Positions 44,703 through 48,380 of a DNA stretch of 64,000 nt are shown here, one piece after another. Each line of letters opens with the position of its first letter. Position 1 is the first letter of the stretch. A program made the translations under genes and the position numbers. The stretch covers positions 62,001 to 126,000 of the forward strand of contig MKGP02000007.1 in the NCBI GenBank assembly GCA_001913845.2. Direction: 5' to 3'. This DNA comes from Limnothrix sp. CACIAM 69d. GTDB taxonomy: Bacteria > Cyanobacteriota > Cyanobacteriia > CACIAM-69d. A model generated the notes under the pieces. That model saw only the letters and a program-made list of their open reading frames with translations, made no database searches and was not told where the DNA came from.

Positions 44703-45077
44703 ATGGCGAAAAATCGCTTTTTTTGGCACTCCTCCCTGGCAGGGTTAGCTGTGGCCCTCGTGGGTTCGGCCCTGGGCGCGCAGCCCGCTGCTGCTGAATA
44801 TCAGTCGGTGACCTTCACTCTGATTAATTCCACCAGTCGGGTGCTCGAAGAATTCTATGCATCTCCCCCCAGTACCAATGACTGGGAAGCGGACATTTTG
44901 GGAACTGATGTACTCAACCCGGGCGAGTCCATTGAGATCACGATCGATGATGGCCGCGAGGATTGTCTTTACGATTTCAAAGGTGTGCTTGGCCCCGGTA
45001 ATGGTGTGGGTCGGGGAGCTTTGATCCAATCCAGCGTTTCTGTCTGTGATGGCGGCACTTACGAATATTCCGAATAG
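44703..45077 (+). CDS. Small secreted protein
   Basis: This is a 124-residue protein with a Sec signal (HSSLAGLAVALVGSALGAQPAAA, cleavage near AAA-EY). The mature part (FTLINSTSRVLEEFYASPP, then DVLNPGESIEITIDDGRE) matches a small beta-sandwich family seen in many proteobacteria and cyanobacteria that often uses two cysteines; here DCLYDF and SVCDGG could form a disulfide. The biological role is not known to me. A strong terminator follows. Confidence 0.7.
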   Translation: MAKNRFFWHSSLAGLAVALVGSALGAQPAAAEYQSVTFTLINSTSRVLEEFYASPPSTNDWEADILGTDVLNPGESIEITIDDGREDCLYDFKGVLGPGNGVGRGALIQSSVSVCDGGTYEYSE

Positions 45078-45207: not shown

Positions 45208-46209
45208 CTAAAGGCTGATGTAGCGATCGGCTAGTTGCTCTAGCAGTTCAACCATGGCCTGAACCATCGGTAATCCTGTTAAAAGCTCAATCCAGTACCA
45301 CTGGCCATTGGGATTCAGCTCAATGAAGTAAAGTTGGTCATCGTCATCCCGAATGATGTCAAATGCTCCAAAATTTAGTCCAAAGACTTTCAGCATTCCA
45401 TAGAGTTTTTGGATGTAGTCATCAGGTAGTGCGTCAGGGTAGTGAGCCAATTTGTCTGGCTCCGTGACTCGCCAATCCAGTTGGACATCTTGATCGTGAA
45501 TCCCTTCAGCTTCAATTCGGCAAACAAAATGCTTTTTGCCGATCAAGGTTACTCGGTATTCTGATTTTTTATGAATCCGCTTTTGAATGAAGACGGGTGC
45601 CAGCCGGATGCTGTCTTTTAAGCCCTGGAGAATTTCTAGATCGATCAAGCGGGTGTAACAGCCATATTGTTGATCCTGATGCAGAAACCCGGAATAGCGC
45701 ATGGGCTTAACAATGCAATCTTGATGAGACTGCACGAAGTCACAAGCAGCCTCATAATCGTTTGTGACGATAGTGGGTGGAATCAAAATTCCCAGACCCT
45801 TGGCAACCGGAATCTGATTGATCCGATGGGAAGGAATCCGAATGTTGTAGTAATTGTTAACCCACTGTGCTTTCGGAAAGAGACCTGGTAATGAGAAAAT
45901 TAATGATTCCGTTTCTTGTTGGCAATACTTGATTGCCCAAGGATCTTCTACTTCTGGAAAGGGTTGAAAGTCATTAGGCTTTCGCCACCAAATGACTCCT
46001 AGGTCTTGAATTTCTCTCAATGAATCCAAAAGAGTCAAATGCTCTTGAGATAACTGTCCAGTTTGATCCCAAGAGTAAGCATATTGACTTTGTTGAATAA
46101 AGCTTTCTGAGTTTAGACGAATTGGATTTAGCTTGCTGCTTGCTAAAGCCTGAATAACTGCATCTGCATGAATGTCTTCATTAGAGGTGACAATTAAAAT
46201 GTCTGTCAT
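45208..46209 (-). CDS. MvdD-like ATP-grasp ligase (graspetide maturase)
   Basis: This 333-residue ATP-grasp enzyme is of the kind that closes side-chain lactones or lactams on ribosomal peptides (microviridin MvdD/MvdC, graspetides). The N-terminal domain starts DILIVTSNEDIHADAVIQAL and has VIWWRKPNDF, a family hallmark. ATP binding is seen as CIVKPMRYSGF and VFIQKRIHKKSEYRVTLIG. The metal-ligand segment is LYFIELNPNGQWYWIELLTG. Only one ligase is present, whereas microviridin loci have two. The precursor gene lies 106 bp upstream on the same strand; no transporter, acetyltransferase or protease is adjacent. Confidence 0.88.
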   Translation of the reverse strand: MTDILIVTSNEDIHADAVIQALASSKLNPIRLNSESFIQQSQYAYSWDQTGQLSQEHLTLLDSLREIQDLGVIWWRKPNDFQPFPEVEDPWAIKYCQQETESLIFSLPGLFPKAQWVNNYYNIRIPSHRINQIPVAKGLGILIPPTIVTNDYEAACDFVQSHQDCIVKPMRYSGFLHQDQQYGCYTRLIDLEILQGLKDSIRLAPVFIQKRIHKKSEYRVTLIGKKHFVCRIEAEGIHDQDVQLDWRVTEPDKLAHYPDALPDDYIQKLYGMLKVFGLNFGAFDIIRDDDDQLYFIELNPNGQWYWIELLTGLPMVQAMVELLEQLADRYISL

Positions 46210-46241
46210 GATTCTTGAATTGTATGATCAATCAATATAAA

Positions 46242-46276
46242 GGCAGCCTATAGTGATGATGTCTCTATAGACTGCC
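46242..46276 (-). promoter_or_regulatory. Hairpin between precursor and ligase genes
   Basis: On the minus-strand transcript GGCAGTCTATAG (46276-46265) pairs with CTATAGGCTGCC (46253-46242). The stem is 12 bp with one G-U pair and an 11-nt loop, followed by TTTATATT. The position suits an attenuator or processing signal that makes more precursor than enzyme. Confidence 0.6.
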
Positions 46277-46315
46277 ACAGCGTGACTCTTGCAATCTAGC
46301 GATGCAATTCAAAAA

Positions 46316-46537
46316 CTAATCATCTTCCTGCGAATCATCATCATTAGTATCAAACATCTTGAAAGTAGATCCGCTACGGTTGCACCAAGAACCGCTCATA
46401 GCAGAGAAGTTAGAGGTTTGGGTTGCTGGGTTGTAAGTGGCCTGTTCGTCGGCTGCATCACTCAAATTAGGAGTAATGCTGAGGTGCATCATCAGGGGAT
46501 AGGACTTCCGATCGAGTTCAACTTGCAAGTTGTTCAT
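46316..46537 (-). CDS. Candidate graspetide precursor peptide
   Basis: This is a small gene directly upstream of the ATP-grasp ligase, 73 residues from the ATG at 46537 (an in-frame GTG at 46567 would add 10). The leader region contains DRKSYPLMMHLSITPNL, and the C-terminal end is STFKMFDTNDDDSQEDD. The Thr58/Lys60 donors and a dense Asp/Glu acceptor run (63, 66-68, 71-73) fit substrates for omega-ester/amide formation. There is no PFFARFL leader motif, so it is not a microviridin. A single Cys52 lies in GSWCNRSG. Assignment rests on size, core composition and neighbourhood. Confidence 0.7.
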   Translation of the reverse strand: MNNLQVELDRKSYPLMMHLSITPNLSDAADEQATYNPATQTSNFSAMSGSWCNRSGSTFKMFDTNDDDSQEDD

Positions 46538-46603: not shown

Positions 46604-46678
46604 AGTCGAAAAAAGTCGAAAAAAGTCGAATTTTGCTTTTTTTTGAATAATGTTAGAGCTGCAAAAGCGAAAAAAGTC
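46604..46678. promoter_or_regulatory. Three CGAAAAAAGTC repeats in the divergent promoter region
   Basis: CGAAAAAAGTC occurs at 46607-46617, 46617-46627 (sharing one base) and 46668-46678. Spacings of 10 and 51 bp are close to one and five helical turns. They sit between the precursor and HTH-gene starts and are candidate operator sites. Confidence 0.6.
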
Positions 46679-46721
46679 AGATATGATTGGTTCTAGTTAA
46701 AGCTCTGGAGAAGTGAGATTT

Positions 46722-47210
46722 ATGGATATTCAGAAGGTGCTCTGCTTTCTGGATGATTTGATTCTGGATCGCACAGGTCAGCACCTAGATGATGTGCAAC
46801 TGGGTGTGATTGAAGGGGTGCTCAAGCGGCAGAAGTATAGTGAAATTGCTCAAGCCCTTAACTGCACGGAAGGCTATGCAAAAGATACTGGATATGAGTT
46901 ATGGAAAATTTTGTCAGATGTTTTCCAGGAGGAAGTTAGCAAGAATAACTTGAAAACAGTTCTCCTGCGAAAAGGTATGATCTATAACTCAATTATTAAT
47001 ATTGGGGATAATAATACAGCAGGGTCAGTTCATGTCTGTGCTGAAGAAGGTGAATCTCAAGATTTTCAGCGCGGCCAAACAATAGCCAAGTTAGAAGCTG
47101 TGAATCGATTGAGATCGATGGGATTAACTGATCAACAAATTTCAATTGCTCTTGATTTACCGATTACGGATGTGCAAGGAGTGCCCAGCACCCAAAAAAA
47201 CGCCGGATAA
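46722..47210 (+). CDS. Stand-alone VMAP-type HTH protein, likely regulator
   Basis: This is a 162-residue protein. Residues 1-85 (MDIQKVLCFLDDLILDRTG, then QLGVIEGVLKRQKYSEIAQAL, NCTEGYAKDTGYELWKILSD, VSKNNLKTVLLRKG) match the HTH module I know from the N terminus of cyanobacterial NB-ARC/NACHT-WD40 and vWA-MoxR-associated proteins. A short GDNNTAGSVHVC linker and a second helical motif (LRSMGLTDQQISIALDLPI) follow. No NTPase or effector domain is attached. The ATG at 46722 is chosen over a GTG at 46713 because GGAG lies 11 nt ahead. It is divergent from the graspetide genes. Confidence 0.75.
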   Translation: MDIQKVLCFLDDLILDRTGQHLDDVQLGVIEGVLKRQKYSEIAQALNCTEGYAKDTGYELWKILSDVFQEEVSKNNLKTVLLRKGMIYNSIINIGDNNTAGSVHVCAEEGESQDFQRGQTIAKLEAVNRLRSMGLTDQQISIALDLPITDVQGVPSTQKNAG

Positions 47211-47344
47211 TGGAATGAGAAAGCTAGCAAGAAGCTGCCCAGATTTTTGCCATTCATTCTGTAGATACTGTGTCACTCTCAGACCCTTGCGCCTATTCGG
47301 GGAACACAGTATCTACGGCTGATGCCATCAAAATGGGAAAAACG

Positions 47345-47575
47345 ATGGCCCAAATAAAAGTCTTTTACGAACCTGAAACGGAACTGCTCACCATCTTTTG
47401 GCAAGCTCCCCGCCTGAATCAAATCGCCACCAACCTCGGTGACGATATCATCTTGTTCAAAGATAGCGACACCCAAGAACCCATCGGCATCGAAATCCTG
47501 TCCTATCGCCCCGGTGACGATCGCCTCAACGGCATTTCCCTAGAACTCGGCCAATACACCCTCGTTAATTCCTAG
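47345..47575 (+). CDS. DUF2283 family protein
   Basis: This is a 76-residue protein from the ATG at 47345, with GGGA about 7 nt upstream. IKVFYEPETELLTIFW, then NLGDDIILFKDSDTQEPIGIEIL fits DUF2283, a small beta-rich family often found near toxin genes and suspected to be an antitoxin or regulator. Upstream in-frame codons from 47270 have no support. The next frame downstream is a short fragment, so a partner toxin gene is not evident. Confidence 0.8.
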   Translation: MAQIKVFYEPETELLTIFWQAPRLNQIATNLGDDIILFKDSDTQEPIGIEILSYRPGDDRLNGISLELGQYTLVNS

Positions 47576-47580
47576 ATCTT

Positions 47581-47700
47581 GTGAAAAGTGATCAAAAAAA
47601 GTTGCTAGATATCCTGGAAGCAATCGATCGCTTTGAACAATACGCAATTATAGGAAAGATAGACTCCGAGAAAATTTCCAGCCGGTTAACGAAGCGGTAA
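47581..47700 (+). pseudogene. Short frame resembling the N terminus of a HepT-like protein
   Basis: A GTG-initiated 39-codon frame contains LLDILEAIDRFEQYAIIG, which resembles the first helix of HepT/DUF86 toxins, then ends at KISSRLTKR. It overlaps the 3' end of the DUF5615 gene. It is probably a remnant or chance; the resemblance is weak. Confidence 0.3.
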
Positions 47701-48036
47701 AAAATAAACTCTTCCTTCTAATTCCTCTTCTAGCGCACATTCTTCTAAGAGTAAAATATCGTCGATCGCCACTGAAACGGCTACCCGGCGACTAACTTCA
47801 ACTAGTCCAGGCATCTTCAGACCGGCTTTGACTCGATCATAGGCAAATCCTGCCATCGTAGACACATCATGGGTTAGCGTCACTCGATCGACTTCAGCCG
47901 CCCAAGCTAAAACGGTAGGATCATCCACGCCCGACAGGCCCACATCTTGAATGCGCTCAATATCCACCGTTGGATTGCGCCGTAAAATACCGCGTACAAT
48001 CTGATTATTGAAATTTTCGTCCGCAAGAAACTTCAT
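47686..48036 (-). CDS. DUF5615 PIN-like toxin candidate
   Basis: This is a 116-residue protein starting KFLADENFNNQIVRGILRR, with an acidic DEN motif, then VLAWAAEVDRVTLTHDVSTM, typical of the DUF5615/Mut7-C PIN-like nuclease family. It follows the DUF433 gene by 14 bp, the standard antitoxin-toxin order for this pair. A ribonuclease toxin role is inferred from family and order, not proven. Confidence 0.85.
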   Translation of the reverse strand: MKFLADENFNNQIVRGILRRNPTVDIERIQDVGLSGVDDPTVLAWAAEVDRVTLTHDVSTMAGFAYDRVKAGLKMPGLVEVSRRVAVSVAIDDILLLEECALEEELEGRVYFLPLR

Positions 48037-48050
48037 ACTTTAGAAGTGGA

Positions 48051-48380
48051 TTAGTGACTCATGCGTCGTGCTAGCAGCCGATCGCGTAAACCCACGGGGT
48101 TATCAGTCGCTTCAATTCTTTGCTGTACCGTTACTGCCAAATTAGATCGCGATCGCAAATAGCTATCAACCTCCGATCGATGTCGCAAGTAATAGCCCAA
48201 CACAGAATAGATGTCGGCCAACTGAAGCGAAGGATATTGCTCTTGAATCTCCTCAGCTAAATTGCCTTCTAGAAATGCCAAGATCACCGTATCTAACGTC
48301 ACGCGGGTTCCTCCCACGCGAATGACCTCTGTAGAATCAATGGCTAAAGGAACCGTTTCCGTCACCGGCATAATTAACAT
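48051..48380 (-). CDS. DUF433 antitoxin candidate
   Basis: This is a 109-residue DUF433 protein. A beta start (VPLAIDSTEVIRVGGTRVTLDTVI) leads to an HTH-like helical part (EGNLAEEIQEQYPSLQLADIYSVLGYYLRH). A GGAGG ribosome site stands 7 nt before the ATG. Paired with the DUF5615 gene, it is likely the DNA-binding antitoxin that represses its own operon. Confidence 0.85.
   Translation of the reverse strand: MLIMPVTETVPLAIDSTEVIRVGGTRVTLDTVILAFLEGNLAEEIQEQYPSLQLADIYSVLGYYLRHRSEVDSYLRSRSNLAVTVQQRIEATDNPVGLRDRLLARRMSH

Follow-up and report, generated by a model that had tools for sequence, protein, structure and literature searches.

A compact set of genes on the minus strand of a 64,000-nucleotide stretch of DNA (the window) from the filamentous cyanobacterium Limnothrix sp. 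CACIAM 69d, together with a neighbouring control gene on the plus strand, is probably a regulated single-ligase graspetide cassette that makes a stem-loop product with a hypervariable loop and has a predicted regulator of its own. The two minus strand genes lie head to tail, as the earlier note on this DNA had said, and both open reading frames were confirmed:

45208 to 46209, minus strand: ATP-grasp graspetide synthetase (the ligase) of 333 amino acids, recognized from profile, PDB sequence, fold, catalytic-residue, and tree evidence
46316 to 46537, minus strand: precursor peptide of 73 amino acids, conserved upstream of each close ligase that is intact and has sufficient contig

The conserved alignment of the precursors opens at the Met of the same ATG that had been given before as the start, and homologous precursors were found about 100-210 bp upstream of the ligase in every intact close relative with sufficient contig (Microcoleus, Phormidium, ESFC-1, and a species of the same genus). 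The objection which the earlier note had raised against itself, that the small frame might not be conserved near related ligases, is thus answered. Scanning the named genomes turned up 26 loci. Full-length close ligases were found in 10 of the 62 Microcoleus-family genomes and the precursor was present in nine of these ten; the tenth, G436, is apparently locus L037, which is cut by the contig end. A close precursor without a ligase was not found in any of the 62 genomes, and in four of them (G097, G427, G201, and G430) there were only ligase fragments and the precursor was absent. The closest relative of the window cassette is L042 (genome G386, same genus), whose ligase is 94% identical to that of the window, and between the two the dN/dS came to 0.031/0.425 in the ligase gene and to 0.104/0.659 in the precursor gene, which indicates that both genes are under purifying selection. 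The only genes that recur in the cassette and beside it across genera are the ligase, the precursor, and the regulator. Judged from these sequence comparisons, the 73-residue precursor and the single ATP-grasp ligase form a real unit and not a chance frame, and what was found is the layout of the graspetide class, namely, a small precursor beside a ligase, a conserved leader, and a core with Ser/Thr donors and Asp/Glu acceptors.

When the window ligase was ranked with NCBIfam models it scored 198.9 bits with TIGR04187, 157 bits with MvdC, and 144 bits with MvdD, all below the respective curated cut-offs of 350, 425, and 475 bits, and the relatives scored 189-209 bits with TIGR04187, which is also below 350 bits. 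The nearest PDB relatives by sequence were MdnB, MdnC, AMdnB, CdnC, and 9bou, and the predicted structure (pLDDT 93) matched CdnC, MdnC, AMdnB, PruB (9bou), MdnB, and PsnB ahead of RimK and ArgX. K168, R219, D245, R247, D284, E297, and N299 were invariant in 30 ligases, and in a maximum-likelihood tree the close relatives formed their own 100/100 clade separate from the sequences labelled MvdC or MvdD by NCBIfam. On these comparisons the ligase is taken to be of the graspetide-synthetase kind and neither an MvdC nor an MvdD, TIGR04187 being the nearest family. The earlier description of it as MvdD-like was imprecise, as MvdD is only the third-best model. The broader claim of a graspetide locus with a single ligase and an unfamiliar core was borne out by the conserved precursor, the synthetase fold, the catalytic residues, and the separate ligase clade. 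It could be argued that the ligase adds amino acids to the precursor and makes no crosslinks, like RimK and LysX/ArgX-type enzymes on protein substrates, since the ATP-grasp fold is common to RimK and ArgX/LysX and the acidic C-terminal tail of the precursor looks like a substrate for tail addition. This is very improbable, as each of the first 31 structure matches was a graspetide synthetase and RimK and ArgX ranked after them, the RimK family scored 19.6 bits compared to 199 for TIGR04187, and the conserved Ser/Thr donors of the precursor would be left unexplained. With graspetide synthetases ranking before RimK, the concern that the ligase might group with non-peptide ATP-grasp enzymes also falls away.

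The following segments were recognized in the precursor, the identities in the core being those among ten intact close precursors:

46475 to 46498, minus strand: leader motif PLMMHLSI, residues 14-21, the predicted ligase-recognition segment (conservation and fit to Phhx(1,2)h)
46409 to 46435, minus strand: YNPATQTSN, residues 35-43, the window form of the conserved Y(D/N)PxTQTSN (alignment; weak TIGR04186 and PF14408 matches of the L033 copy)
46364 to 46390, minus strand: predicted donor region SWCNRSGST, from S50 to S57/T58 (S50 invariant; the S/T pair 90% identical)
46343 to 46363, minus strand: hypervariable loop FKMFDTN, residues 59-65 (26% identity among loops of the same length)
46319 to 46342, minus strand: predicted acceptor cluster DDDSQEDD, residues 66-73 (91% identity)

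The mean pairwise identity of residues 12-21 was 90%, and PLMMHxxI follows the Phhx(1,2)h pattern set out in PMC8939145. The leader had been said to have no PFFARFL-type motif, which is correct, but it is not free of motifs, as the Phh-type PLMMHLSI is present instead. The window precursor did not match TIGR04186 (GRASP_targ) or PF14408; when six related precursors were matched to the library, relevant matches came from that of L033 alone, whose YDPxTQTSN region weakly matched GRASP_targ (14.1 bits, E 0.039) and Actino_peptide (PF14408; 12.0 bits, E 0.24), both below the 25-bit cut-off. A search of the source genome for a second precursor found none. In the core, the Trp and its neighbour were 90% conserved, the loop varied from 3 to 9 residues in length, and the conserved donors S50 and S57/T58 lie on the other side of the loop from the acceptor cluster, whose consensus is DDDxQEDD. 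The acidic tail, in which a possible second core had been seen, is short and nearly invariant and is better read as this acceptor cluster. The precursors of L035 (3699-3887) and L050 (3674-3871) are without most of the acidic tail and that of L081 (969-1196) has in-frame stops; the adjoining ligases of all three look intact.

The sequence of the window core, S-T-F-K followed by acidic residues, raises the question whether the product is a microviridin-type cage peptide with Thr/Ser lactones and a Lys lactam, and a Lys is found at the same column in L033, L034, and L038 as well. The Lys60 column, however, is occupied by K, R, F, D, N, or G, and Lys is missing in six of the ten intact precursors (R, F, D, N, N, and G); hence the earlier reading of Thr/Lys donors with a microviridin-like logic fails. 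The TxKxPSD core is absent from the window precursor, as is the PFFARFL leader, and in place of the MvdC and MvdD pair of microviridin there is one close ligase in the genome, which scores far under the cut-offs of both and lies outside their clade. Microviridin membership was therefore rejected on core, leader, and ligase, and we consider a cage of this type highly unlikely. What the cassette has in common with the microviridin systems (MdnB/MdnC, MvdC/MvdD) is the ligase fold and the catalytic residues, whereas their two ligases, leader, and core motif are all absent from it.

A closer likeness is to the actinobacterial group that has a TIGR04187 (GRASP_SAV_5884) ligase and a TIGR04186/PF14408 precursor, with which the cassette shares the single ligase, TIGR04187 as the top model, the Y-D-P-x-T-Q region of the precursor, and Ser/Thr donors ahead of Asp acceptors. 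It differs in being cyanobacterial, in having another core, and in its scores, which are 199 of 350 bits for the ligase and 14.1 of 25 bits for the L033 precursor. Because the leader motifs and the single TIGR04187-like ligase tie the cassette to this large actinobacterial-type group, the earlier suggestion of a new graspetide class was overstated. In fuscimiditide a single ligase forms two Thr-Asp esters, one inner and one outer, and tolerates changes in the loop that they enclose, also in its length (PMC12291112), and rosaritide is made with a TIGR04187 ligase from Ser/Ser/Thr donors and three Asp acceptors (PMC13097080). By analogy with these two, we infer a stem-loop product with S50 and S57/T58 as donors. 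Fuscimiditide and amycolimiditide, the group 13 graspimiditides, have a layout like that predicted here, with fixed donors and acceptors in the stem, a loop that varies in both sequence and length, and one ligase, but their loops are of 10-12 residues compared to 3-9 here, their RPFG leader motif is replaced by PLMMHxxI, and no isoaspartyl O-methyltransferase gene adjoins the cassette. Rosaritide (group 21) is alike in having a TIGR04187 ligase, in its Ser/Ser/Thr donors, and in the clustering of its Asp acceptors (PMC13097080), and it differs in core spacing and in its PPIase-type partner gene, which is not found beside the window cassette.

A probable sequence of events is that the ligase would bind the leader through PLMMHxxI, and probably also through Y(D/N)PxTQTSN, and would phosphorylate side chains of Asp/Glu residues of the DDDxQEDD cluster at the C-terminus, which the hydroxyls of S50 and S57/T58 would then attack to give two or more omega-esters, the ester chemistry and the ring pattern being those expected by analogy. 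The product would be a hairpin-like stem that displays the hypervariable 3-9-residue loop, and our guess is that this is most likely a protease-inhibitor loop; PMC8939145 states that every graspetide characterized up to its time was a protease inhibitor. Release is guessed to be by an unlinked peptidase or exporter. The remark in the earlier note that there is no transporter holds locally, as no linked exporter or C39 peptidase was found at the locus, but one weak unlinked C39-peptidase ORF is present in the genome. Counted against this explanation were the TIGR04186 and TIGR04187 scores below cut-off, the lack of a linked peptidase or exporter, and the acidic tails mostly gone in L035 and L050, and, for its regulatory part, which is given below, the regulator without a Pfam match and with weak fold matches, and the uneven repeats in the sister and third families.

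The earlier description of the locus did not include a regulator, repeats, or a hairpin, all of which were found around the precursor gene:

46242 to 46276, minus strand: 12-bp hairpin in the interval between precursor and ligase (stem at the same place in 11 of 11 own-family intervals)
46604 to 46630, minus strand: predicted operator TTCGACTTTTTTCGACTTTTTTCGACT, three units with 10-bp spacing (0 expected in shuffles)
46667 to 46682, minus strand: partial second copy of two units, ATCTGACTTTTTTCGC, near the regulator start (relatives have the equivalent ATCCGACTATTTTCGCC)
46722 to 47210, plus strand: divergent HTH-like regulator (neighbour conservation; predicted all-helical model)

The hairpin stem had z values from -2.7 to -5.4 in the 11 own-family intervals, and being 3' of the precursor gene it might let the precursor exceed the ligase. 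Scans for sigma-70 promoters and canonical terminators gave no excess over shuffles. The regulator ORF was called from a GTG at 46713, and conservation places the start at the ATG at 46722. In the close cassettes the divergent regulator gene lies next to the precursor gene, with 47-96% identity, and homologues of its N-terminus occur on large ORFs in relatives. A Pfam search with the window regulator gave no match; its model is all-helical, and the top structure matches, which were weak (E >= 0.2), were mostly DNA-binding HTH domains. The N-terminal part may be the HTH domain that is named after vWA-MoxR associated proteins, with which its homologues on large ORFs and the NB-ARC fusions described below would agree. 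The repeats sit between the precursor gene and the divergent regulator gene, and at all 13 loci examined 10 was the best repeat period, the signal being weak in some of the individual sister-family loci. The HTH-like protein would control expression by binding, as we suppose, to the 10-bp-spaced repeats between both transcripts. That the 10-bp repeats are a feature of every related locus was considered and rejected, as the outcome in the third family was mixed.

The sister and third families are two more cyanobacterial families (L045, L047, L048, and L056; and L062, L066, L082, and L083) that have the same precursor layout with other motifs. The sister cassettes L045, L047, L048, and L056 (Arthrospira, Okeania, Roseofilum, and an Oscillatoriales MAG), which are unnamed, are like the window cassette in the Ser/Thr cluster, the acidic tail, the 10-bp repeats, and the divergent regulator, whose N-terminal domain is related, and their precursors have an LPFAMxF leader and YNPxxQxN. 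They differ in that the ligase is only 31-33% identical, the repeat unit is of the CCCAC type as against TCGAC in the window family, and the regulator N-terminal part is fused to an NB-ARC domain. This domain (about 460 amino acids) was seen in the regulators of L045, L047, and L056, which suggests from domain content that a STAND-type sensor controls graspetide expression in sister cassettes. Locus L049, on a contig of a 'Flavobacterium' MAG, has a precursor nearly identical to that of the Oscillatoriales locus L047 and is probably a mis-binned cyanobacterial contig.

The product might instead be an internal signal that is read by the neighbouring regulator and not a protease inhibitor acting on a target, in keeping with the strict neighbourhood of regulator and cassette, the lack of a linked exporter or protease, and the fusion of related N-terminal domains to NB-ARC NTPases beside sister cassettes. 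A hypervariable loop, however, is more in keeping with a target that changes than with a ligand site that is fixed, and in L031 two tandem precursors with different loops have one common regulator; we regard this as an unlikely alternative to a protease-inhibitor loop. It is likewise doubtful that the regulator domain, which in other loci is joined to NB-ARC (STAND-type) NTPases, places a group of cyanobacterial graspetides under the control of proteins that sense conflict or stress; if this is true, cross-linked protease inhibitors with hypervariable loops would be an inducible response in multicellular cyanobacteria.

Published surveys count 174 precursor families (PMC8939145) and 21,584 predicted graspetides in 43 groups (PMC13097080). 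None of the genera of this family is named in the main text of PMC8939145, and a search of open-licence papers found no graspetides named in these genera and no such regulators beside graspetides. Set against the main texts of these surveys, the cassette, by its core motif, regulator, and predicted operator, appears to extend the graspetide class and not to found a new one. With it the class gains a coherent cyanobacterial family whose loop varies naturally on a fixed scaffold, which makes it suited to studying how a single ligase tolerates changed loops. It further yields a concrete prediction of a regulator and an operator that would govern graspetide expression, neither of which is described for this family in the main texts of PMC8939145 and PMC13097080.

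The G+C content was 43% in the ligase and 45% in the precursor compared to 55% in the window, which suggests that the cassette is acquired DNA. When the 5 kb of the window that were compared with L042 were aligned, there was no extended DNA match beyond the cassette and part of the gene at 47270-47575, and in the same-genus genome G033 (locus L007) the flanking genes of the window surround a 270-bp ligase remnant with a stop. From this confined match and this remnant, the cassette seems to have been both gained and lost. L005, L052, L054, and L055, like L007, have ligase fragments, some with stop codons, and no recognizable precursor, and by these sequences the cassette is under loss in several lineages. 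A DUF5615 (PIN-like) and DUF433 pair, which is toxin-antitoxin-like, adjoins the cassette (47686-48380, minus strand) and is also found beside the L007 remnant. The gene at 44703-45077 (plus strand) encodes a small protein with a likely signal peptide that is 98% identical in L007 and has no convincing family match. The small gene at 47270-47575 (plus strand) has a weak DUF2283 match, is 96% identical beside the L042 cassette, and was not found in the other loci; it is possibly a passenger of the transferred segment.
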